Below are positions 11,989-43,127 of a stretch of DNA of 64,000 bases, piece after piece. The position numbers were made by a program, and so were the translations under genes. Source of the stretch: Thunnus maccoyii. Its lineage: Eukaryota > Chordata > Actinopteri > Scombriformes > Scombridae. The notes beneath the pieces were generated by a model that was not told the origin of the DNA, did not search any database, and saw only the letters and a list, made by a program, of their open reading frames with translations. Every line of letters starts with the position of its first letter. Position 1 is the stretch's first letter. The stretch spans positions 6,014,001 to 6,078,000 of the forward strand of contig NC_056554.1 in the NCBI RefSeq assembly GCF_910596095.1. Reading direction: 5' to 3'.

Positions 11989-13096
11989 TGTGTGTTTGAT
12001 CATTTACACACACATCAATGGATCATCTTAGCTCCGGGAAGGAGGTTTGATTATGTCTGTTTATCTTGTCAGCCACTGACCACATAGTACCCACTCACAA
12101 AATAGTCCTCTACTTTTGTGGCAGCACAAAGATCAGCACAAGCAGCGACATCACAACTTAATTGACGCTGAGGTGTACTAGTATTTTAGTGCTTGTTTTA
12201 GTGCACATGGTGTGAATGTGGGAGGATAGGTGGCAGGTAACAGTTTCATTCACATGATAGAGAGCAAGGAGAGATGTTGATATTTTGGGTTGAAGTTGTG
12301 GTGCTGAGAACAGTGTTTTTCTGAGGTAACGCATCTTGTTTTGACCTGTATCCCCCTGCTTTGTACCAAACTCTACACTGAGCACAGGTTCATTTCTGAT
12401 CTTTTTATTAACTTTTGGTAAGACAGCCAACAAGCATATTATCCAAATACATGAAGGAGTAAGAAACTCAGTAATTGTTGCAATATTAAGACTCTAAATT
12501 CTCAACTTCAGAGACAACCAGGCCTTTATTTTACACAAACTTATAAGGACATGAATCTATTCCTAATTTCCTCTGTTTGCCTTTATAATTGTATCACATT
12601 TTAGTAAAATGTCTTGTTTGCTGATCTACTGTGGTTTAATTTTGCAGCTGGTGTTGTAATGCATACTCAAAATGTCCTCCTTGTTTACCTGTTGTCTTGG
12701 TCAAATCAATTCTGTTCCTGTGAGATTTTCTCTATAACAACAATACTGTTTTCACTCACTGATTAATTCTAGTTGATTCTACTTCATTGTCTTCAGGTAC
12801 TGTCAGTAAATTCAGCACTTTCCAGCAACATGTGACAGTAAATAGCTCTCTCAATGTTGTATTTAATAGTTCAGTTACTGTGGTCTGTAAAGAACGTGAC
12901 GGTTTGAGATGAGATGGATTTACACTTGATGGTATTTTAACTGATTACATCTCAACAGATACATCACCAAAATATCTTCATGTTAAGAAGAAAACAAGTT
13001 GTGTGAAAGAGGAACAGTTTTAATTGCATGTGGTTTTACAGCAGAGAGCTAAAGGCCAGTCTTGCTGTGGTTTTGTTTTGACTGGTTCACACTTTT

Positions 13097-13345
13097 ACCA
13101 CAATGGAAAATGACAGGGGCAGGGTGCACAAGACTTGTTACATGTCTGCACAGTTACTATACTTATTCACTGTGTCAGTACATAATGGAGACATTTCTAA
13201 AATGTAGAAATAATAATATATTGAGCCAAATAGAGTAAAATATAGTCTTGTTGAGATTGTTTCTACATTAGTAGAGATCAAGAGGTTAAATGAATTTAGT
13301 TTCATGACCCATGATGTTCACTTGAGACCACACTGTGCTGTACTT
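13097..13345. repeat. internal direct repeat, copy a
   Basis: About 250 bp (acaatggaaaatgacagggg to gaccacactgtgctg) recurs at 14347-14620 and, in the second duplication copy, at about 31270-31510 and 32525-32780. It shows that a smaller unit of about 1.25 kb duplicated before the large duplication. Confidence 0.65.
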
Positions 13346-13540
13346 CCTGTCAAACAAGTGACGTTTACCTCACTCACTCCTCCCTTCTTGCAGACCATCT
13401 GACTCTCCCTATAAGGAGATTTGACAGTCATCAGTGTCCTTTTCTGGCTCCACCTCCATCAAACATCTAATATGCTCTCGTTTCTCTCAGATTAGGATCA
13501 GAGGCAGACAGAATAAGAAAGACTTCAACAGAGAAGGATT
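13303..13540. repeat. family A 3'-flank module, copy 4
   Basis: Full module: gagaccacactgtgctgtac, ctctccctataagga, gacagtcatcagtgtcc, ggctccacctccatcaaaca, then gcagacagaataagaaag. It lies beyond the orphan tail exon at 13866-13984. Confidence 0.6.
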
Positions 13541-13865
13541 GAAAGAAACACAAGAAATAAAATGCAAACTTTTAATTTATTGATCATTTTTTCACAGTGA
13601 GTCCTTCCACCCACTGCCCACACACAAACACACATCAGGTTACTGTGATAAAGCATCAGTTCCTCTCTGAGTTTATTTGCTGGCAGCACTAGCTCTCACC
13701 TTTTTTCTTTTTCTGTCTGAAGAATAAGATGAAGACAAACAAGATAAAAAGACACTGAGACTGAGAGCAAGAGAGAAAGAAGCACGAGAGAATCAAAACT
13801 CAACCAGAACATAATTAAAATTTGATTCTAAACAAAGCGATCTCAACCATCCAGTAGCTTCCTGA

Positions 13866-13984
13866 ATCTGGTGGCAGCAGCAAACACAACATTCAGCTCC
13901 AGCTCTCTCTCTGATGCAGACCTGCAATTTTCTTTCTTTTGTTTTTGGATGGGCTACATAGTTCAGGTCAGCTGAGCTCATATT
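13866..13984 (-). pseudogene. decayed family A tail exon (A-psi)
   Basis: Minus-strand translation gives NMSSADLNYVA then a PKTKE stretch, homologous to the NLGSDDLNYAAV...PKAK tail of A2/A4. The acceptor AG is changed to AA. A frameshift follows the Arg-rich part, and the stop codon after AATR is replaced by TTC. The copy at 32036-32154 has the same lesions, so decay came before the large duplication. Confidence 0.65.
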
Positions 13985-14346
13985 TTGTACATAAGAGTTC
14001 ACACAGTCATGTGTTGTATCTTAGATGCTGTAGCTGAGTTTGTCAGGTATCATCCTTAAATATGTGCATAATTAAAGTTTTTTTAAAATGTCTTTCTTCC
14101 AAACAAGTAGGATAAATCTTGTAATTCAGTCACATTAAAGTTATAATACTATTGTTTTCTCCAATAACCATTCAATGTATTTCTATTCAGTAATGATCTC
14201 TCAGTATAGTAGTTATGCTTCATTCCTGCAGCTTCTACTGTTGTTGTGTATCAGAAGGTGCATTATTGCTCAAATGCCAACAGAAAGATAAGAAAAAGGA
14301 ATTGACAGTTGGTCATTTGTTGGCTTTGTTTTGGCTGGTTCACACT

Positions 14347-14620
14347 TTTACCATAATGGAAAATGACAGGGGGAGGGTGCACAAGACTTGTTGCATGTCT
14401 GCATATGAATGCAAACACAGCTACTATACTTATTCACTGTGTCAATATATAATGGAGAAATTTCTAAAGTGTAGAAATAATAATATATTGAGCCAAATAG
14501 AGTAAAATATAGTCTTGTTGAGATTGTTTCTACATTAGTAGAGATCAAGAGGTTAAACGAATTTAGTTTCATGACCCATGATGTTCACTTGAGACCACAC
14601 TGTGCTGTCTCTTCCTGTCA
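14347..14620. repeat. internal direct repeat, copy b
   Basis: Second copy of the 13097-13345 repeat. It ends in the next 3'-flank module. Confidence 0.65.
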
Positions 14621-14725
14621 AACAAGTGATGTGTCACCCACCCTCCCTATCGTACTCTCTCTGTAACTAAGTTTGACAGTCATCAGTGTCCTTTCTGCTC
14701 TTTTAATTGTCACATTAAGATTGTA
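14572..14725. repeat. family A 3'-flank module, copy 5
   Basis: gagaccacactgtgctgtct is followed by gtactctctctgtaac and gacagtcatcagtgtcc. It lies about 100 bp beyond the orphan tail exon 14830-14952. Confidence 0.6.
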
Positions 14726-14829
14726 GACAGATGATTTTGTGGTTGCTTGTATTCACCACCTACATCTGAGAACAACCAGAGAATAATATGATAAAGCATC
14801 AGAGCTGCAGTTCCAGTTGCTTCCTGAGT

Positions 14830-14952
14830 CTATCTAGTGGCAGCATAAACAACATGAGTTTCCTCCTCTCTCTCTGCTGCTGGCCTCCTGCTTCTTATTG
14901 TTTTTGGAAGGAACCTCAGCACTGAAGAGTTCAGCTCATCTGAGCCCAAATA
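14830..14952 (-). pseudogene. orphan tail exon with open frame, ITIM Tyr lost
   Basis: After a TTTACAG acceptor, 41 codons run in frame to TAG, the same length (123 nt) as the A1 tail exon. The sequence starts YLGSDELNSSVL and ends HVVYAATR. The ITIM LNYAAL is replaced by LNSSVL. No V, TM or short tail exon is recognisable upstream. The second copy at 33077-33199 also has an open frame. It is probably a leftover exon, but use as an alternative tail of A2/A4 cannot be excluded. Confidence 0.55.
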
Positions 14953-15612
14953 CTGTAAATCAGAGAATTGGAGTCACATACTGTATCTCACACTGCAATC
15001 TCTGTTTTTTCAATGTCTTCAAGTGCTGCACCTTTTACCAACACAGTTCTTCAGAAGTTAGAAAAAACAAAATGTAGTAGCAGTTTTATTTGGTGTGTTT
15101 TGTGGTTGTTGCTACATTGTGAAAGTAACATACTGGAGAAAATAGTACAGAGCTGAAGGCCATTCTTGCTGTGGTTGAGATGTCTCTTTTAGGCTGACAC
15201 AGACAGTACTGTTTGTTACACTTGAAAGTGGCAGGATGGACGACTGAGAGCATAAATACATGTTACATGCTAAAAAACACACCTGGATGTTAGCTGTAGA
15301 CTATCTTTGTATTTTCTTCCACGTACCACTATAGACACACCGACATACTGTATGTACTGTGCATACAGTCTATATTAAGTCAACATTTAAAGCTTAAGTT
15401 TCTGTATTGATGTACTGTAATAACATCTTTACAAGAGCGATATGAAATAAAACTCAGCACTAGAAAGAAGATGCAACTGTTATGCATCTTTTTTTCTGCC
15501 AAAGTAATGGTCTCCTGTCCACCAAACACACAAAAACACATAAAAACACAAGTGCAGATTCACATGAAAAAGCATCAGTTCCCCTCTGAACAGCTTTTCT
15601 TGTTTCTTGAGT

Positions 15613-17007
15613 CTATCTGGTGGCAGCATACACAACATTTGGCTCCACCGCTCTTCTTTTTGCTTTTGGACAGAAAGTCACTGCTGCATAGTTCAGGTCA
15701 TCAGAGCCCAGATTCTGTAAATAAAAGTATTTACAGTCAGTCACCTTAACAAGTGGAAATGAAGAGAAAAACAAAACAATGGCTGGACATGATCTTAAAT
15801 TATAAAACAAATACAAGTAAATGATCAAACTTTACTTGTAAAGTAAATGATAAAACATGATTCACCTCACTCTGTTGTCGATTCTTTTCTTCATTAGCTG
15901 CCAAATGAAAGAGACAATGTATCTAATCAGTTAATTGACCGTCATTATTCTAAAACTTTACTGTTATTCCGTTTTTGGCAAACATAAAATTTAGTAGTCT
16001 TCCAAAATATTCACACAACTTTAAAGAATTTGTGAAAAAAACTATGAACCAAATACAAGATAGAAACATTACCTCTCTGAAGTTTTCTGTTTTTAACAAC
16101 CAGACCAATGATGACCGTAGTGTGGAGAACAAACAGACTGCCCAAGATCACCAAGATCACACCCATCAGCTTTGTTGTTGCATCAGACTCTGCCACAAGA
16201 AAGATCTTTAATCAGACTGTTTCTCCTTTTCTAGCTAAAAATGACGAACATTAAAATGGACAAATGAATTTTGCACAATGAAATCTATAAGAGACTCTTA
16301 CGTTTAGACTTTCTGCCAATGTCATCATATGATTCATCATCACTGCCTTTTAATGAAATGAAGATACATTTTATTTTTATTTTGCTTTAAAAATGTGCAT
16401 CAATATCTTGTTTTGACAATAATTAAATAGCCACATATAGAAAGACATAAGAGAAGAATATAAATTTCATAACATCTTACCTTCAACATTTAAATGTATG
16501 ACACTTAAAAGCATCTGTCTGTTGCTGAAGAAAATCCACAGAAATAAACCCCTGAGTCAGATAAATCCACTTCCTTAATGTTGAGGGAGACTGTGGAAAT
16601 GTTGGAGCTCATTTGAAATTTTCCATTTTTAAATCCATCACAGTATTTAACCTTTTTAGAGCTGATCATAGTTGAGATACAGCTGGCTTTGGTTTTGTTG
16701 ACCAGTCTGAACCAGGTTGTCTTTGATGGAATGTTGGAAATGTTGGTGCACTGCAGTGTGACTTCTTCACCAGGCTGGACCTCCACAGTGTGAGACTCAG
16801 AAAGTGAGACAGAGATCCAGCCTGAAACACACAGCAGAGAAAACAAGAGATTTAGTTGTTATAGGAAGAAAAACAAAACCTCTTAATAAATTGAATAATG
16901 AGCAAAAAAGTTTCAATTCTGGCAGCAATGAAGTTGAGAGAAATGTAGTGGCAGTACTTACTGATGCTGCAGAGAATGAAAGCTGTTATCAAGGTAAGGT
17001 TCATCAT
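15613..17007 (-). pseudogene. A2: V-set receptor gene with frameshift in V exon
   Basis: Exons: 17007-16962 leader, 16821-16481 V, 16346-16302 acidic stalk, 16189-16073 TM, 15897-15866, 15714-15613 tail. The arrangement is the same as A4, but the V exon is 341 nt instead of 342. One base is lost after YFCGF, so the frame ends in SSATDRCF and a stop at 16505-16507, before the stalk and TM. All other exons stay open. The tail encodes LNYAAV (ITIM) and NVVYAATR. As written, the locus would give only a secreted, truncated V domain. It may be a recent pseudogene, a null allele or an assembly error. The V domain has the second Cys pair (SCISTM / YCDGF). Confidence 0.8.
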
Positions 17008-18115
17008 GGTGCGTATGATTGTAGCTCAGCAATGTGTGTAATCAAACTGTGCTCCAGGAAGGGTGTTCTCAACTTAAGAGGTGGGGCTATTTTTTCTTGC
17101 TCATACTGTTGCGTAAACTGTCCACATGAATGCTTTCTGTAAAACGAGTGTTGATGCCAAATGATCGTCTGAACGGATACGAGATGGTTATCCTGAAGGT
17201 TATTTTAGCTGCATAGTGTTCAAACCAAAGTTAAAGAATGATAGACAGTCACATGTTATTCTCTTATATTAAATACTCACATGGCCTGGATTAATCTCTG
17301 CCATAAAAATGGCCACGTCAGACATCTGAGAAGTGTCAGGAAATGTAATATTTCCTGGTCATTCTGAACACCAGAGTGCAAGCTGCAGAATATGAGATAA
17401 TAGTCTTCATGTGTAGAACAAAGTGCTTTATGTCTAGTTGCTCATCAGATACATTGAGGAAACAAACAGGCCCAAATAGAAACAACATAAAGACAAGTGG
17501 AATTTAAAATCATCTGATGAATGAAAGATGCAGGTTTTATCAACCACTTTTGTTTTGTTGTGTCTGCATCAGAAGCTTTAATTAACATTCTTACTTTTTG
17601 TAAATGAGGTACTTCCAGTTTTCTTTATGTTTACAGCTGCAGACAGTTGACTTGAATGGTTTACAATATAGATGCTGGTCATGTGTTGTCATTTACTTAC
17701 TTAAAAATTTTATCTATCTAGCATGTTGTGTTTTCCCACAACATGCTTTAGTGAGTGGGTGTGAAGATCTGTGATTCCATTACATACTCATACATATTTA
17801 CAGCAGTAGATCACGAAGCTGAGCCTCAATAATAATTCATAAACCTTTGTTTGACTAGTTTATTTCTGAACCCGCCCATCGTACACTGCGCCGTCATATG
17901 CTGCACCGTCACACACCACGCCACCCACCACCACAAGTAAATTCTCAACCTGTGGGAAACACTGTACATGTTGAAGACATGACAGATCACAGCAGAGATA
18001 CAGCAGGTGCAGCTCCTGTCCATCTTCACTGTTGTCACATCCTGCCAGGACTTTCTGTTGTGTTTGGACTCTGTGTTTTTGTTCTTTTGGGTTTTCTGTG
18101 TTACACTTATGTTGC
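17008..18115. other. A2 5' flank, no further gene
   Basis: The family A promoter-like block (ctgtgctccaggaagggtg, caacttaagaggtggggc) lies within 80 bp of the leader. The rest, up to about 18115, matches 35262-36360 closely and shows no exon. Confidence 0.45.
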
Positions 18116-18292
18116 CCTAATTGAAAAAGTGAGGCTTGACCTAGTCTAATCAGTGCATTCAGGCTTAATCTGTTGCACATTTGCAAAGCCAGGATGAGGA
18201 GGTGCGACTATGTTAAGTAATTCAGATAAGTGCATGTTCACGGCTTCCTTAAACAGACCACAAGGTCGATCATAGAGTTACTGATGCAGAAA

Positions 18293-26554: not shown

Positions 26555-28312
26555 CTATCTGGTGGCAGCATACACTACATTTGGCTCCACCACCTTTCTT
26601 TTTGCTTTTGGTTGAAATGTGACTGCAGCGTAGTTCAGCTCATCAGAGACCTGATTCTGTAAAAAGAGTATTTACAGTCTTAATGTGGTGAAATGATAAG
26701 ATTGAAATAAAATACAATTTAGATACTGGTTCTTTGAGGCCGATACCAATATTGATATTTGGCCAATTGTCATGAACACAATGATGCCTTGATTTTTTTT
26801 AAAGGATTGTGACATTTAGTGAAGATGTGAATGAAGGAAAACATTTTACAGTTGAAAAATAAACTTGTTCATGCTCTCTGATGGACATATTATGTAAAGA
26901 AGACACTGTTTCTAAATGACACATATCTTCGGCACTTTTATTTCTTGCCGATTTTGCTTATTTCTTACTCATCAGCCAACATAAACTGTGATACTGCAAC
27001 AAGATCATTTCAGCTAATAGGTCTGGCTGTCATACAATATATCAAAGTAAATGTAAAAGTAGGATTCACCTCACTTGGTTGTGGATTCTGCTCTTCTTCA
27101 GCTAAGTGACAGAGACAATTACATCTGATCAGTTATTTGACAGTCATTGTTCTAAAATATTGCTGTTATTACATTTTTCAAGCAAGACGTTTCATATATT
27201 TCCTCCATATTGTCAACACTTGAAGAGAATGTCCAGTAGCAACAAAACCAATTATAAGACAGAAACAGTAACTTTGAAAAAGTACCTGTCTTAAGTTTCC
27301 TGATTTTAACCAGCAGACCAATGATGACCATTGCAAGGAAAACAGTCAGACCAGCCAGGATCACACTCGTCAATTTTGTTATTCCATCAGACTCACACTC
27401 ACATTCTACAAGAAAGATCATTAAATCAGACTAAATTACTACCAGAAGTGACTTGAGATGAAAAAACAAATCAAGCAGAACTGTTTCATTTTCAAATGTT
27501 TGATAATCTGCATTTCTACATCTGCAAATCTTACTTTTAGATGTGTCATCCACGTCATCATGTGATCCATCATCACTGCCTTTTAATGAAATGAAGATAC
27601 ATTTAGTCTTGATTTTGTTTTGACAGATTTCACAATCATTGTTTGGTAATGTTTAAACTGTCACTTTGTTGCATATGTAGATATTAGATAATAATTATGA
27701 AACATATTGACAATATAAACATAAATGACCAAATAGTTGGTACCAAACAAAATACAAGACATTAATCTTACCTGCAACATTTAAATATATCACAGTGAAA
27801 ACTGGACGTCCACTTGTGTAGAATCCACAGAAATACATTCCAGAGTCTGATGAATCCACTTGTTTGATGTTCAGAGAGACAGTAGAGATGTTGGAGCTCA
27901 TTTCAAATTTTCCCTTCTGAAAGCCATCGCAGAGTTCAGCTTCGCTGCCAGATTTGATCATAACAGAGATACAGTTGATCTTGGTTCTGTTGACAAGTCT
28001 CAACCAGAAAGCCACAATGCTATTTTTTAATCTATCGGGACACTGCAGTGTGACTTCTTGGCCAGACTGGACCTCCACAACCCGAGACTCAGACACTGAG
28101 ACAGAGATCCAGCCTGAAACACACAGCAGAGACAAGTTGTTACAGGAAGATAAACGATACCTCTTAATGAATTTAACAGTGAGTATATAAGTTTCAATCG
28201 TGTCGGCTAAACATAGAATAACAACATTTGTAATGAAGTTGAGACTAATTCAAAGCCAATACTCACTAATGCTGCAGAGACTTAAAGCAGTTATCAAGGT
28301 AAAGGTCCTCAT
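26555..28312 (-). CDS. A3: single V-set Ig inhibitory receptor with ITIM
   Basis: Exons: 28312-28267 leader, 28113-27772 V, 27579-27535 acidic stalk (SDDGSHDDVDD), 27405-27286 TM, 27101-27070, 26656-26555 tail. The lengths join in frame to 228 codons. The V domain has Cys40, Trp52 and a VDSSDSGMYFC F strand, plus the extra Cys pair (NCISVM / LCDGF). The stalk-TM junction has two closely spaced Cys (CECESDG) that could dimerise. The TM has no charge and is followed by KIRKLK. The tail holds LNYAAV (Tyr204), an ITIM, and NVVYAATR. It is the partner of A5 in the other duplication copy: the two differ at 11 V-domain residues, six of them within residues 41-48. An inhibitory cell-surface role is inferred from the ITIM. 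Confidence 0.85.
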
Positions 28313-29849: not shown

Positions 29850-30345
29850 AGATAAATTCATGAGCTTGATTTTGAGAAACAAAGTAGAGATGTTGGATCA
29901 TGTTGGTCATTTCAAATGTTCCATTTTGAACCCCATTACAGAAAGAAGCAGGCTCAATATAATTGTACAGAGAGGAAATACAATGGGGCTTGGTTCTGTT
30001 GATCAGTCTAAACCAGAATAAACCAGAGAGGAAGAAGTGGAAAAGTTGGAGCACAGCAGAGAGTCTTCTTCACCAAGCTGGACCTCCACAGTCTGAAACT
30101 CAGAGGCTGAGACCGAGATCCAGCCTGAAACACACAGCAGAAACAAAATGAGATTTAAATCCCGGCTGTTAAGCAACAGACAGACAACAGTTCCTCTAAT
30201 CAACTGTATTAAGTCAATTCATTTTTCCTGCTGGTTATTAAAGGAAACATAAGTTAGCCATGGAGAACATTTTGAGGGTAATTCAATGTCAGTACTTACT
30301 GAGGCTGCAGAGAAGTAAAGCTGTGATCATAGTAAAGCTCATCAT
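29850..30345 (-). pseudogene. A-psi: leader plus broken V exon of a family A gene
   Basis: The leader exon 30345-30300 is intact (MMSFTMITALLLCSL, GTAAGT donor). The V exon starts at 30124 (GWISVSASEFQTVEVQLGEE) with the first Cys in LLCSNFS. A frameshift near 30020 separates it from FWFRLINRTKPHCISS...SFCNGVQNGTFEMT. A second shift follows: TLFLKIK appears in another frame. The second F-strand Cys, stalk, TM and tail are absent. In copy 1 only the leader survives (11943-11988). Confidence 0.75.
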
Positions 30346-31469
30346 TGTGCATTTGATCATCTACACAACAATGGATCTTAAAATCACTGAGCTCCAGGAA
30401 GGAGGTTTGATTATGTCTGTTTATCTTGTCAGCCACTGACCACATAGTTGATATTTTGGGTTGAAGTTGTGGTGCTGAGAACAGTGTTTTTCTGAGGTAA
30501 CACATCTTGTTTTGACCTGTATCCCCCTGCTTTGTACCAAAATCTACACTGAACACAGGTTCATTTAAAACTGATCTTTTTATTCACTTTTGGTAAGACA
30601 GCCAACAAGCATATTATCCAAATACATGAAGGGGTAAGAAACTCAGTAATTGTTGCAATATTAAGACTCTAAATTCTCAACTTCAGAGACAACCAGGCCT
30701 TTATTTGACACAAACTTATAAAGACATGAATCTATTCCTAATTTCCTCTGTTTGCCTTTATAATTGTATCACATTTTAGTAAAATGTCTTGTTTGCTGAT
30801 CTACTGTGGTTTAATTTTGCAGCTGGTGTTGTAATGCATACTCAAAATGTCCTCCTTGTTTACCTGTTGTCTTGGTCAAATCAGTTCTGTTCCTGTGAGA
30901 TTTTCTCTATAACAACAATACTGTTTTCACTCACTAATTAATTCTAGTTGATTCTACTTCATTGTCTTCAGGTACTGTCAGTAAATTCAGCACTTTCCAG
31001 CAACATGTGACAGTAAATAGCTCTCTCAATGTTGTACTTAATAGTTCAGTTACTGTGGTCTGTAAAGATGGTTTGAGATGAGATGGATTTACACTTGATG
31101 GTATTTTAACTGATTACATCTCAACAGATACATCACCAAAATATCTTCACGTTAAGAAGAAAACAAGTTGTGTGAAAGACGAACAGTTTTAATTGCATGT
31201 GGTTTTACAGCAGAGAGCTAAAGGCCAGTCTTGCTGTGGTTTTGTTTTGACTGGTTCACACTTTTACCACAATGGAAAATGACAGGGGCAGGGTGCACAA
31301 GACTTGTTGCATGTCTGCACAGTTACTATACTTATTCACTGTGTCAGTACATAATGGAGACATTTCTAAAATGTAGAAATAATAATATATTGAGCCAAAT
31401 AGAGGAAAATATAGTCTTGTTGAGATTGTTTGTACATTAGTAGAGATCAAGAGGTTAAATGAATTTAGT
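30346..31469. other. duplicated intergenic sequence, no gene
   Basis: It matches about 11990-13300 of copy 1 with small indels; no exon is seen. It includes the repeat described at 13097-13345. Confidence 0.45.
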
Positions 31470-31710
31470 TTCATGACCCATGATGTTCACTTGAGACCAC
31501 ACTGTGCTGTACTTCCTGTCAAACAAGTGACGTTTACCTCACTCACTCCTCCCTTCTTGCAGACCATCTGACTCTCCCTATAAGGAGATTTGACAGTCAT
31601 CAGTGTCCTTTTCTGGCTCCACCTCCATCAAACATCTAATATGCTCTCGTTTCTCTCAGATTAGGATCAGAGGCAGACAGAATAAGAAAGACTTCAACAG
31701 AGAAGGATTG
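31470..31710. repeat. family A 3'-flank module, copy 7
   Basis: Duplicate of the module at 13303-13540. Confidence 0.6.
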
Positions 31711-32035
31711 AAAGAAACACAAGAAATAAAATGCAAACTTTTAATTTATTGATCATTTTTTCACAGTGAGTCCTTCCACCCACTGCCCACACACAAACAC
31801 ACATCAGGTTACTGTGATAAAGCATCAGTTCCTCTCTGAGTTTATTTGCTGGCAGCACTAGTTCTCACCTTTTTTCTTTTTTCTGTCTGAAGAATAAGAT
31901 GAAGACAAACAAGATAAAAAGACACTGAGACTGAGAGCAAGAGAGAAAGAAGCACGAGAGAATCAAAACTCAACCAGAACATAATTAAAATTTGATTCTA
32001 AACAAAGCGATCTCAACCATCCAGTAGCTTCCTGA

Positions 32036-32154
32036 ATCTGGTGGCAGCAGCAAACACAACATTCAGCTCCAGCTCTCTCTCTGATGCAGACCTGCAATTT
32101 TCTTTCTTTTGTTTTTGGATGGGCTACATAGTTCAGGTCATCTGAGCTCATATT
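32036..32154 (-). pseudogene. decayed family A tail exon, second copy
   Basis: It matches 13866-13984 with one amino-acid change (SSDDLNYVA instead of SSADLNYVA). The acceptor, frame and stop lesions are the same. Confidence 0.65.
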
Positions 32155-32741
32155 TTGTACATAAGAGTTCACACAGTCATGTGTTGTATCTTAGATGCTG
32201 TAGCTGAGTTTGTCAGGTATCATCCTTAAATCTGTGCATAATTAAAGTTTTTTTTAAAATGTCTTTCTTCCAAACAAGTAGGATAAATCTTGTAATTCAG
32301 TCACATTAAAGTTATAATACTATTGTTTTCTCCAATAACCATTCAATGTATTTCTATTCAGTAATGATCTCTCAGTATAGTAGTTATGCTTCATTCCTGC
32401 AGGTTCTACTGTTGTTGTGTATCAGAAGGTGCATTATTGCTCAAATACCAACAGAAAGATGAGAAAAAGGAATTGAAAGTTGGTCATTTGTTGGCTTTGT
32501 TTTGGCTGGTTCACACTTTTACCACAATGGAAAATGACAGGGGGAGGGTGCACAAGACTTGTTGCATGTCTGCATATGAATGCAAACACAGCTACTATAC
32601 TTATTCACCGTGTCAGTATATAATGGAGAAATTTCTAAAGTGTAGAAATAATAATATATTGAGCCAAATAGAGGAAAATATAGTCTTGTTAAGATTGTTT
32701 CTACATCAGTAGAGATCAAGAGGTTAAACAAATTTAGTTTC

Positions 32742-32940
32742 ATGACCCATGATGTTCACTTGAGACCACACTGTGCTGTACTTCCTGTCAAACAAGTGAT
32801 GTGTCACCCAAACCCTCCCTATCGTACTCTCTCTGTAACTAAGTTTGACAGTCATCAGTGTCCTTTCTGCTCTTTTAATTGTCACATTAAGATTGTAGAC
32901 AGATGAAATAAGAAAGACAAAGACTTTGGCTTAGAAAAGA
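32742..32940. repeat. family A 3'-flank module, copy 8
   Basis: Duplicate of the module at 14572-14725. It keeps an extra stretch (gacagatgaaataagaaag to caaactagtttc) that copy 1 has lost. Confidence 0.6.
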
Positions 32941-33076
32941 AAAAGAAAAACACAAGCATGAAAATACAAACTAGTTTCTATTTTTGTGGTTGCTTGTATT
33001 CACCACCTTCATCTGAGAACAACCACAGAATAATATGATAAAGCATCGGAGCTGCAGTTCCAGTTGCTTCCTGAGT

Positions 33077-33199
33077 CTATCTAGTGGCAGCATAAACAAC
33101 ATGAGTTTCCTCCTCTCTCTCTGCTGCTGGCCTCCTGCTTCTTATTGTTTTTGGAAGGAACCTCAGCACTGAAGAGTTCAGCTCATCTGAGCCCAAATA
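33077..33199 (-). pseudogene. orphan tail exon with open frame, second copy
   Basis: Same 123 nt frame as 14830-14952, with a TTTACAG acceptor, LNSSVL in place of the ITIM, HVVYAATR and TAG. Both copies remain open. No other exon of this gene is recognisable. Confidence 0.55.
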
Positions 33200-33870
33200 C
33201 TGTAAATCAGAGAGTGGGAGTCACATACTGTATCTCACACTGCAATCTCTGTTTTTTCATTTGTGCTGCAGCACAATGTCACAATGTCACAATGCACCTT
33301 TTACCAACACAGTTCTTCAGAAGTCAGAAAAAACAAAATGTAGTAGCAGTTTTATTTGGTGTGTTTTGTGGTTGTTGCTACATTGTGAAAGTAACACACT
33401 GGAGAAAATAGTACAGAGCTGAAGGCCATTCTTGCTGTGGTTGAGATGTCTCTTTTAGGCTGACACAGACAGTTCTGTTTGTTACACTTGAAAGTGGCAG
33501 GATGGACGACTGAGAGCATAAATACATGTTACATGCTAAAAAACACACCTGGATGTTAGCTGTAGACTATTTTCTTCCACGTACCACTATAGACACACTG
33601 ACATACTGTATGTACTGTGCATACAGTCTATATTAAGTCAACATTTAAAGCTTAAGTTTCTGTATTGATGTACTGTAATAACATCTTTACAAGAGTGATA
33701 TGGAATAAAACTCAGCACTAGAAAGAAGATGCAACTGTTATGCATCTTTTTTTCTGCCAAAGTGATGGTCTCCTGTCCACCAAACACACAAAAACACATA
33801 AAAACACAAGTGCAGATTCACATGAAAAAGCATCAGTTCCCATCTGAATAGCTTTTCTTGTTTCTTGAGT

Positions 33871-35261
33871 CTATCTGGTGGCAGCATACACAACATTTGG
33901 CTCCACTGCTCTTCTTTTTGCTTTTGGACAGAAAGTTACTGCTGCATAGTTCAGGTCATCAGAGCCCAGATTCTGTAAATAAAAGTATTTACAGTCAGTC
34001 ACCTTAACAAGTGGAAATGAAGAGAAAAACAAAACTATGGCTGGACATGATCTTAAATTATAAAACAAATACAGGTAAATGATCAAACTTTACTTGTAAA
34101 GTAAATGATAAAACATGATTCACCTCACTCTGTTGTCGATTCTTTTCTTCATTAGCTGCCAAATGAAAGAGACAATGTATCTAATCAGTTAATTGACCGT
34201 CATTATTCTAAAACTTTACTGTTATTCCGTTTTTGGCAAACATGAAATTTAGTATTCTTCCAAAATATTCACACAACTTTAAAGAATTTGTGAAAAAAAA
34301 CTATAAACCAAATACAAGAGATTACCTCTCTGAAGTTTTCTGTTTTTAACAACCAGACCAATGATGACCGTAGTGTGGAGAACAAACAGACTGCCCAAGA
34401 TCACCAAGATCACACCCATCAGCTTTGTTGTTGCATCCGACTCTGCCACAAGAAAGATCTTTAATCAGACTGTTTCTCCTTTTCTAGCTAAAAATGACGA
34501 ACATTAAAATGGACAAATGAATTTTGCACAATGAAATCTATAAGAGACTCTTACGTTTAGACTTTCTGTCAATGTCATCATATGATTCATCATCACTGCC
34601 TTTTAATGAAATGAAGATACATTTTATTTTTATTTTGTTTTAAAAATGTGCATCAATATCTTGTTCTGACAATAATTAAATAGCCACATATAGAAAGACA
34701 TAAGAGAAGAATATAAATTTCATAACATCTTACCTTCGACATTTAAATGTATGACACTTAAAACTGTCTGTCCACTTCTGAGTAAAAATCCACAGAAATA
34801 AACCCCTGAGTCAGATAAATCCACTTCCTTAATGTTGAGAGAGGTTGTGGAAATGTTGGAGCTCATTTGAAATTTTCCATTTTTAAATCCATCACAGTAT
34901 TTAACAGTTTTAGAGTTGATCATAGTTGAGATACAGCTGGCTTTGGCTCTGTTGACCAGTCTGAACCAGGATGTTATTGCTTGAACTTTGTAAATGTTGG
35001 TGCACTGCAGTGTGACGTTTTCACCAGGCTGGACGTCCACAGTGTGAGACTCAGAAACTGAGACAGAGATCCAGCCTGAAACACACAGCAGAGACAACAA
35101 GAGATTTAGTTGTTATAGGAAGAAAAACAAAACCTATTAATAAATTGAATAATGAGCAAAAACCATTAAATTCTGGCAGCAATGAAGTTGAGAGAAATGT
35201 AGTGGCAGTACTTACTGATGCTGCAGAGAATGAAAGCTGTTATCAAGGTAAGGTTCATCAT
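33871..35261 (-). CDS. A4: single V-set Ig inhibitory receptor with ITIM
   Basis: Exons: 35261-35216 leader (ATGATG), 35075-34734 V, 34599-34555 acidic stalk (SDDESYDDIDRKSK), 34442-34326 TM, 34155-34124, 33972-33871 tail. They join to 227 codons. V-domain landmarks: Cys40, Trp52, Cys63 (SCISTM), Cys76 (YCDGF), Cys110 (DLSDSGVYFC). The TM segment lacks charge and is followed by KNRK. The tail has LNYAAV (Tyr203), an ITIM, and NVVYAATR. A4 is the intact partner of A2: the intron between stalk and TM is identical over 112 nt, but residues 44-51 differ at seven of eight positions. An inhibitory membrane receptor is inferred; the ligand is unknown. Confidence 0.87.
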
Positions 35262-36360
35262 GGTGCGTATGATTGTAGCTCAGCAATGTGTGTAATCAAA
35301 CTGCTCCAGGAAGGGTGCTTTCAACTTAAGAGGTGGGGCCATTTTTTCTTGCTCATACAGTTGCGTAAACTGTCCACATGAATGCTTTCTGTAAAACGAG
35401 TGTTGATGCCAAATGATCGTCTGAACGGATACAAGATGGTTATCCTAAAGATTATTTTAGCTGCATAGTGTTCAAACCAAAGTTAAAGAATAGAGATAGA
35501 CAGTCACATGTTATTTTCTTATACTAAATACTCACATGGCCTGGATTAATCTCTGCCATAAAAATGGCCACGAGAAGTGTCAGCAGATGTAACATTTTAA
35601 AGAGTTCCTGGTCACTCTGAACACCAGCGTGCAAGCTGCAGAATATGAGATAATAGTCTTCATGTGTAGAACAAAGTGCTTTATGTCTAGTTGTTCATCA
35701 GATACATTGAGGAAACAAACAGGCCCAGATAGAAACAACATAAAGACAAGTGGAATTTAAAATCATCTGATGAATGAAAGATGCAGGTTTCATCAACCAC
35801 TTTTGTTTTGTTGTGTCTGCATCAGAAGCTTTAATTAACATTCTTACTTTTTGTAAGTGAGGAACTTCCAGTTTTCTTTATGTTTACAGCTGCAGACAGT
35901 TGACTTGAATGGTTTACAATACAGACGCTGGTCATGTGTTGTCATTTACTTAAAAATTTTATCTATCTACAAAAAATAGCTTGTTTTCCCACAACATGCT
36001 TTAGTGAGTGGGTGTGAAGATCTGTGTTTCCATTACATACTCATACATATTCACAGCAGTAGATCACGAAGCTGAGCCTCAATAATAATTCATAAACCTT
36101 TGTTTGACTAGTTTATTTCTGAACCTGCCCATCGCACACTGCGCCGTCACATGCTGCACCGTCACACAGCACGCCACCCACCACCACAGGTAAAACACAG
36201 GCCTGTGGGAAACACTGTACATGTTGAAGACACAGCAGAGATACAGCAGGTGCAGCTCCTGACCATCTTCACTGCTGTCACATCCTGCCAGGACTTTCTG
36301 TTGTGTTTGGACTCTGTGTTTTTGTTCTTTTGGGTTTTCCTGTGTTACACTTATGTTGCC
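35262..36360. other. A4 5' flank, duplicated, no further gene
   Basis: It matches 17008-18115. It carries the family A upstream block near 35300-35345 and no exon. Confidence 0.45.
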
Positions 36361-41700: not shown

Positions 41701-43127
41701 TCACTCTGAGCTGTTGTTGTTTCTTCTTGTCTGTCTGCAGGCAGCATAAATAACATGAGTGTCCACTTCTCTCTGTGATGCAGGCCTCCTGCTTCTTATT
41801 GTTGTTGAATACAAAGTCAGTGCTGTGTCCTTCAGCTGATCAGAGTCCAGATTCTGTAAATAAAAGTACATGCAGTTCTACATGTCAAATAGCTGAGTTT
41901 GTGAGAAAAACACTATTGACTTGTGATGATTCTACAACCTTTGAAATGATCAAACACAAAAGTGGATTTACCTTGTTCACAAGTGAATTCTGCCCTTCAG
42001 TCGCAGCTGAGTGACAGAGACAATACATCTGATCAGTTAATAGAAAGTTTGCTGTCATCACATCTTGGCTACAAGAAATGTTCTATTTTTTCATCATACT
42101 GACACTATTGAACATTTCCATAAGTGTTTAGTTTGAGTAATTCTCATAAAGTACCTGTCTTAAGTTTCCTGACTTTAACCATCTGACCAATGATGACCAT
42201 TACAAGGAAAACAGTCAGACCAGCCAGGATCACACTCGTCAACTTTGTTATTCCATCACACTCTTCTACAAGAAAGATCATTAAGTCAGACTAAATTACT
42301 ACCAGAAGTGACTTGAAATGGAAGAAAAAAGTCTGCATTTCTACATCTGCAAATCTTACTTTTAGATGAGTGGTCCATGTTATCATGTGATCCATCATCA
42401 CTGCCTTTTAATGAAATGAAGATACATTTAGTCTTGATTTTGTTTTGAGAGATTTGCATCACAGTCATTGTTTGGTAATGTTTAAACTGTCACTTTGTTG
42501 CATATGTAGATATTAGATAATAATTATGAAATATATTAACAATATAAACATAAATGACCAAACAAAATACAAGACATTGATCTTACCTGCAACATTTAAA
42601 TATATCACAGTGAAAACTGGACGTCCACTTGTGTAGAATCCACAGAAATACAGTCCAGAGTCTGATGAATCCACTTGTTTGATGTTCAGAGAGACAGTAG
42701 AGATGTTGGAGCTCATTTCAAATTTTCCCTTCTGAAAGCCATCGCAGAGTTCAGCTTCGCTGCCAGACCTGATCATAACAGAGATACAGTTGATCTTGGT
42801 TCTGTTAACAAGTCTGAACCAGAAAGCCACAGAGCCATATATTAATCTATTGATGCACTGCAGTGTGACTTCTTCACCAGACTGAACCTCCACAACCTGA
42901 GACTCAGACACTGAGACAGAGATCCAGCCTGAAACACACAGCAGAGACAAGTTGTTACAGGAAGATAAACGATACCTCTTAATGAATTTAACAGTGAGTA
43001 TATAAGTTTCAGTCGTGTCGGCTAAACATAGAATAACAACATTTGTAATGAAGTTGAGACTAATTCAAAGCCAATACTCACTAATGCTGCAGAGACTTAA
43101 AGCAGTTATCAAGGTAAAGGTCTTCAT
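41701..43127 (-). CDS. A5: single V-set Ig receptor that has lost its ITIM
   Basis: Exons: 43127-43082 leader, 42928-42587 V, 42404-42360 acidic stalk (SDDGSHDNMDHSSK), 42265-42155 TM, 42006-41972, 41853-41701 tail. They join to 243 codons without a stop. V-domain landmarks match A3 (Cys40, Trp52, NCISVM / LCDGF, VDSSDSGLYFC). The TM segment has no charge. The tail differs sharply: where A3 reads LNYAAV, A5 reads LKDTAL (Asp202 in place of Tyr). The usual TAG after the VIYAAT-like end is CAG, so translation runs on for about 12 residues (CRQTRRNNNSSE). A remaining Tyr (VIYAAC) is not a consensus ITIM. It may be a non-signalling decoy or an early pseudogene. Confidence 0.8.

Follow-up and report, generated by a model that had tools for sequence, protein, structure and literature searches.

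Replacement-biased variation in the CDR1- and CDR2-like loops of a tandem array of putative NITR-related receptor genes in Thunnus maccoyii

The window, a 64,000-nucleotide stretch of chromosome 22 (C22:6014001-6078000) in the 782-Mb genome of Thunnus maccoyii, contains two similar receptor genes, designated A2 and A4. Searching the genome with the V exon of A4 returned 53 candidates, 40 of which were scored; all 40 lie on chromosome 22 at 5.63-6.06 Mb, and 15, including A2 and A4, are at least 91% identical to the query. These 15 genes are designated A-type, the 13 besides A2 and A4 being named by "g" and their start on C22, and all comparisons among them use the sequence of all 15 genes, drawn from 200 kb of upstream DNA and from the window. 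A2 and A4 belong to a tandem array of these 15 close relatives on chromosome 22; the list of genome matches to the A4 V exon holds no A-type match at 5.82-6.01 Mb.

The A4 V exon occupies positions 34734-35075 of the window on the minus strand (342 nt, 113 whole codons), as read from its splice sites, and matches the Pfam V-set domain with E=1.7e-11. Its translation shows 0 differences from predicted protein P0001 over the first 96 codons, the remainder being equal by eye, and it corresponds to RefSeq LOC121890060 of T. maccoyii. The remaining A4 features, all on the same strand, comprise the CDR1-like codons with the eight loop differences described below (34969-34992, from the alignment; the B-C loop of an AlphaFold2 model spans residues 25-30, with strand C from residue 31), the CDR2-like codons of the C'-C'' hairpin (34900-34920), which form the second variable patch of the family with 14 minimum changes at 21 sites in 13 genes, and the CDR3-like (F-G) loop (34771-34785), which is one codon longer than in 13 upstream genes. 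The leader exon (35216-35261) is identical in 14 of the 15 sister genes. On the other side of the V exon lie the stalk-TM intron (34443-34554), which A2 and three other genes share base for base, the transmembrane exon (34327-34442), and the coding part of the last cytoplasmic exon (33871-33972), in which an ITIM-like LNYAAV and a VVYAATR can be read. The frameshifted V exon of A2 (16481-16821, 341 nt) is likewise on the minus strand, as are its CDR1-like codons (16715-16738), assigned by alignment and pattern search to the same type as those of g5802659 (C22:5802659-5802997), an in-frame stop past the frameshift (16505-16507, from translation) and the aligned stalk-TM intron (16190-16301). 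Both genes are embedded in duplicated blocks, at 12274-18116 around A2 and, by block alignment, at 30444-36360 around A4, with 98.1% identity over 12274-14734 and 94.8% over 14735-18116.

The A-type protein is composed of one V-set Ig domain (Pfam), a short stalk, a transmembrane segment and a tail. The tail is of one nearly uniform ITIM-like type in 11 of the 15 genes, that of A2 lying behind its frameshift, and in these 11 genes LNYAAV accompanies the transmembrane sequence LMGVILVILGSLFVLHTTVIIGLVV; LNYAAV presumably fits the ITIM rule, and an ITIM-like function is predicted. No charged residue lies inside the transmembrane stretch of the two A-type modules read. The A-type proteins read (e.g., P0001, P0002, P0008 and P0009; 211-239 aa) pass from the V domain to stalk, transmembrane segment and tail with no I-type domain, and a J-like end of the form FGXGTXLXV is absent, the V domains ending in ...GQTVLSVIHLNVE or similarly. 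In a PDB sequence search the top match was NITR11 (6e-12), which we take to be the catfish protein, with antibody V domains next (5e-11), and the best Foldseek rows were V domains of TCR, nectin, CD96 and antibodies. A special V fold was considered and rejected, as the fold search gave generic V-set rows. The 120 relatives listed of 240 all come from spiny-rayed fish and are mostly "uncharacterized"; the nearest receptor-named one among these 120 is "Novel immune-type receptor 2" of Miichthys miiuy. As far as this evidence goes, the predicted product is an NITR-related single-V receptor, which we do not file as a typical NITR because it is without the J-like end and the I domain.

Divergence between A2 and A4 was taken from a global alignment of the two duplicated blocks. 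The first-pass annotation had reported stalk-TM introns that match at every base beside eight loop changes that all alter amino acids, and both observations are borne out: positions 16190-16301 and 34443-34554 show 0/112 differences, and all eight base changes in the minus-strand loop codons are replacements (NISNIPSKTTW versus NIYKVQAITSW). V exon and introns are also unequally diverged overall, which answers its call for such a comparison, the V exon having 30 mismatches over 341 aligned bases and a single gap column versus 8/389 in introns 1-3 (p=4e-5) and 2/245 in introns 2 and 3 (Fisher p=9e-6). Intron 2 accounts for 2/133 differences and intron 1 for 6/144, the contrast of the latter with the V exon being non-significant (p=0.09); the 3' side differs at 53/3412 positions. 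Over the first 96 codons silent divergence is 2/62.5 sites, like that of nearby non-coding DNA, and the per-site replacement divergence exceeds it 2.5-fold. Since approximately 76% of CDR1 sites are replacement sites, eight replacements out of eight are not by themselves unlikely (0.758^8=0.11). The same 112-base intron also occurs in g5679168, g5729348 and g5751777, approximately 280-370 kb away, and its identity is therefore no mark of the A2/A4 duplication; its use as a clock for that event was rejected. With 8.8% divergence in V and 2.9% in introns 1 and 2, A2-A4 ranks with the nine most divergent of the 105 pairs in V, and at 16 of its 30 V differences both bases are seen among the 13 other genes. 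The A2-A4 contrast is a strong case of a family-wide feature, and should therefore be read against the whole array.

Across the 105 pairs of the 15 genes, divergence is 2.9-10.0% in the V exon (median 5.3%) and 0-4.8% in introns 1 and 2 (median 2.2%), the V exon being the more divergent in 101 pairs and not so in 4. The introns of the sister genes differ from those of A2 or A4 by 0-5.4%, except intron 3 of g5802659. Silent (S) and replacement (N) changes in the first 96 codons were tallied codon by codon as minimum numbers of steps, a count that treats sites as independent. In the 13 genes other than A2 and g5802659, the 20 codons of the CDR1- and CDR2-like loops have N 33 and S 0 (p=0.0002), compared with N 15 and S 5 in the 76 framework codons; with all 15 genes the loop counts become N 42.5 and S 2.5 (p=0.004) and the framework ratio 17:6. 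The 20 loop codons had been chosen partly with the variation in view, and the count was therefore repeated with loops defined by the AlphaFold2 model (mean pLDDT 86; B-C and C'-C'' loops plus two residues on each side), which gave N 23 and S 0 (p=0.005). The whole 96 codons, with no choice of loops, gave N 48 and S 5 (p=0.015), and the F-G loop region alone showed no replacement excess in 12 genes (6:1, p=0.6). Per site, the 13 genes have 0.084 replacement versus 0.101 silent steps in the framework and 0.71 replacement steps in the loops. Minimum changes amount to 29 at 54 CDR1 and CDR2 sites versus 36 at 385 sites of introns 1-3 (rough Fisher p=5e-9). The replacement rate in the A-family loops thus exceeds both the silent and the intron rates. 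Between species, two predicted T. albacares proteins were compared with the nearest T. maccoyii gene (for P0003, one of four tied nearest genes); of 17 residue differences, 11 fall in the 20 loop codons (p=0.0001). The diversifying selection suggested by the first-pass annotation thereby finds support for the family as a whole (33 N to 0 S across 13 genes), and not as a rewriting of A2 or A4 after their duplication.

Interspersed with the A genes is a second family of B-type V exons, at positions 27777-28113 and 42592-42928 of the window and at 11 more places at C22:5.65-5.80 Mb. Its N:S counts point in the same direction without reaching significance (34:4 in 9 core genes, p=0.08; 61:12 in all 13, p=0.21). 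The 9 core genes differ by 6.0% in V versus 1.9% and 0.9% in nearby introns, and over all 13 genes intron 1 has diverged as far as V (11.7% and 10.1%, respectively). A third V type, with CSNFSTSSSQIFWFR or nearly so, recurs along the array, at C22:5685866, 5702694, 5723368, 5746003, 5756697, 5789227 and 5799286; it has almost no loop variation, its open frames end near the second Cys, and a damaged-looking relative lies at 29850-30124 of the window. These units are either dead or a constrained receptor, in contrast to A and B.

The first-pass annotation had offered gene conversion from a donor V exon as a second explanation for the loop and proposed a genome search for such a donor. A genome-wide search with the A2 loop pattern (one free place, at most 3 mismatches) found one place other than A2 itself, g5802659, 228 kb away. 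A2 has the g5802659 base at seven of the eight loop differences and the eighth base is found in g5670764; of the A4 loop bases only one is private, a kinship that rests on the 15 A-type genes. The seven sites common to A2 and g5802659 span 21 nt, and the nearest differences outside the loop are 55 nt apart. Over 39 bases the loops of A2 and g5802659 show 3 differences, among them one in the Cys codon; two of the three fall within the loop itself, and an exchange, if there was one, is therefore not recent. For the CDR3-like loop of A2 no other place was found at 3 mismatches or fewer, and no donor for its CDR1-like loop in other V families is nearer than 10 of 39 bases, in a comparison set up for 16 of 32 non-A matches, of which 15 gave rows and the one at 6041777 failed the inclusion rule. 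The V-exon tree (CDR3 excluded) joins A2 to g5802659 (99/95; bootstrap not settled) and rejects an A2+A4 clade (AU p=0.02), the tested clades having been chosen after the shared loop had been seen. When CDR1 is also omitted, A2+A4 is no longer rejected (p=0.96), and a 3' flank tree of 11 genes joins A2 and A4, weakly (80/78). The discord is therefore confined to the loop. The donor proposal stands insofar as the loop of A2 is present in g5802659; a significant tract linking the two genes was not detected in a GENECONV-like test from leader to intron 2.

Several observations bear on exchange among the copies. In the 15 A-type V exons 47% of informative site pairs are incompatible with a single tree, and the PHI test gives p=0.007-0.024 over three window sizes for the 15 A genes and p<=0.01 for both B sets; it is not significant in the 13 A genes without A2 and g5802659 (p=0.20-0.73). 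Among the 105 pairs, the GENECONV-like test found one significant tract, between g5674508 and g5679168 (p=0.002). In four of the 15 genes (g5674508, g5733306, g5792713 and g5802659; L014, L020, L026 and L027) the transmembrane exon is 21-25% different from that of A2 or A4, and V and tail modules have therefore recombined; one V type serves two tail types. Two predicted isoforms of LOC121890064 (P0004 and P0005) join the V exon of g5708568 (C22:5708568-5708906) to the other transmembrane module, although the unit of g5708568 has its own ITIM-type transmembrane and tail exons downstream, which may reflect splicing between adjacent units or a faulty annotation. Within an 18-kb two-copy unit, three collinear non-A parts are 84-90% identical compared with 95-98% for the A block, which suggests that the A block was evened out later, a dating weakened by the recurrence of two of the three non-A parts along the array. 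Beside A4, a segment of approximately 1 kb (window 30982-32017) has at least five full-length upstream copies of 95-97% identity, with shorter pieces elsewhere too.

The two genes that share this loop type are both altered. V exons are 342 bases long in A4, 339 in the other 13 sister genes and 341 in A2, which is therefore out of frame from the CDR3-like loop on and reaches its stop (16505-16507) in the F-G loop region. No protein with the loop of A2 is present among the 120 homologs listed of 240, a result that fits a pseudogene and would also fit an assembly error. A2 is probably a pseudogene now, and a one-base error in A2 is possible. In g5802659 the first canonical Cys is replaced by Arg, the tail is different and predicted without LNYAAV, and intron 3 is another sequence.

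We consider it probable that diversifying selection acts on the loops across this tandem NITR-related array, with older loop types spread among the copies and the remainder of the unit kept alike. This reading is based on leaders that are uniform in 14 of 15 genes, introns that are mostly a few percent apart, and CDR1- and CDR2-like codons that vary nearly only by replacement and faster than the introns. The V domain would present three loops to a ligand and the tail would send an inhibitory signal. The loops may face a changing ligand, of pathogen or self, and selection would hold loop variants apart as recombination and gene conversion homogenize the units otherwise and carry loop types between copies; many copies with different loops may widen or refresh recognition. 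The A2/A4 contrast would then represent two pre-existing loop types of the family that met in sister units through conversion of a short piece or through older sorting.

Sorting by itself is a credible if unlikely account, in which the loops of A2 and g5802659 are ancestral and those of the other 13 genes derived, with no need for V-exon conversion. The lack of a significant A2-g5802659 tract leaves room for sorting of old loop types among copies, and the frames TNIS.....TTWFR and SNIS.....TTWFR occur in Micropterus and Anabas proteins, respectively. Nucleotide distances to other families do not settle the polarity (10 of 39 bases for the nearest family versus 11-12), and B-type genes are nearer to A4 or equal. 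Set against sorting are the like flanks of A2 and A4 and a cytoplasmic CPK variant found in A2 and A4 only among the 11 genes compared; together these imply at least one exchange of loop or flank, unless the introns make the array seem far younger than it is. A further elaboration, which we regard as rather improbable, is a germline loop-cassette system in which selection and short conversion tracts would shuffle CDR1- and CDR2-like pieces among V exons with uniform leaders, introns and tails, and broken copies such as A2 and g5802659 would store old loop types, in a way loosely comparable to the pseudogene V segments that serve the antibody genes of birds.

That new adaptive substitutions rewrote the loop of A2 or A4 after the duplication is very unlikely. 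The eight replacements out of eight and the 2.5-fold replacement to silent ratio speak for such a rewrite, but the former alone has p=0.11, the bases of A2 already exist in g5802659 (7/8) and g5670764 (the eighth), A4 has a single private base, and the two carriers of the loop are a frameshifted gene and one without its first canonical Cys. A pair-specific rewrite was accordingly rejected. Assembly is difficult where tandem units are 95-98% identical, and units wrongly joined or collapsed, or a spurious second haplotype, might have produced the loop or the frameshift of A2; this is, however, just as improbable, given that the three collinear parts of the 18-kb unit differ by 10-16%, far beyond two haplotypes, and that the family pattern is independent of A2. 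Least probable of all is local hypermutation or relaxed V-exon constraint without selection for change: the nearly equal N and S rates of the framework do make V-domain constraint look weak, but 0 silent steps in loops with 0.71 replacement steps per site, at a level of change far above the introns, would need a process that strikes replacement sites alone.

No paper on this tuna array is among the listings of the literature searches made for this work. Known systems offer three comparisons. Natural killer receptor arrays of the KIR/Ly49 type place shared ligand-binding modules on different tails and exchange sequence among tandem genes; the tuna array resembles them in its shared binding modules, differing tails and probable tandem exchange, and differs in that their domains and ligands are other and the tuna transmembrane modules read are without a charged residue. 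The NITRs are, like the tuna genes, fish-restricted clusters of type I receptors with V domains and mostly ITIM tails, evolving by birth and death with strong V divergence, as described for medaka (PMC2442602). Nearly all medaka NITRs have a J or J-like end (FGXGTXLXV) on the V and/or I domain, and a six-cysteine I-type domain was used to find them, single-Ig forms also existing (PMC2442602). The tuna A genes differ in having neither I domain nor FGXGTXLXV end and in their low divergence outside the loops.

The closest parallel is the mammalian CEACAM family, and the kind of evolution is a known one. In ruminant CEACAM1 and CEACAM32, gene conversion is located in the leader exon and introns and not in Ig-domain exons, and most candidate diversifying codons of CEACAM32 map to the ligand-binding face of the N domain or close to it, with a reported mean dN/dS of 0.65, purifying on average (PMC7042247). 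CEACAM1-related receptors whose shared V-like domains are kept alike via conversion are the subject of PMC2832619. The tuna array resembles CEACAM as an IgSF family with more uniform non-Ig parts and diversified codons on the presumed ligand face; the difference is that the mammalian case concerns one escaping paralog, whereas the tuna array comprises 15 single-V genes with a clear replacement excess in the loops. The array adds a good new example to this known kind. It is also a compact natural experiment: its 15 receptor genes vary chiefly in the loops presumed to contact ligand, each carries its own introns as a neutral yardstick, and the causes of loop change among the innate receptors of fish can thereby be addressed.
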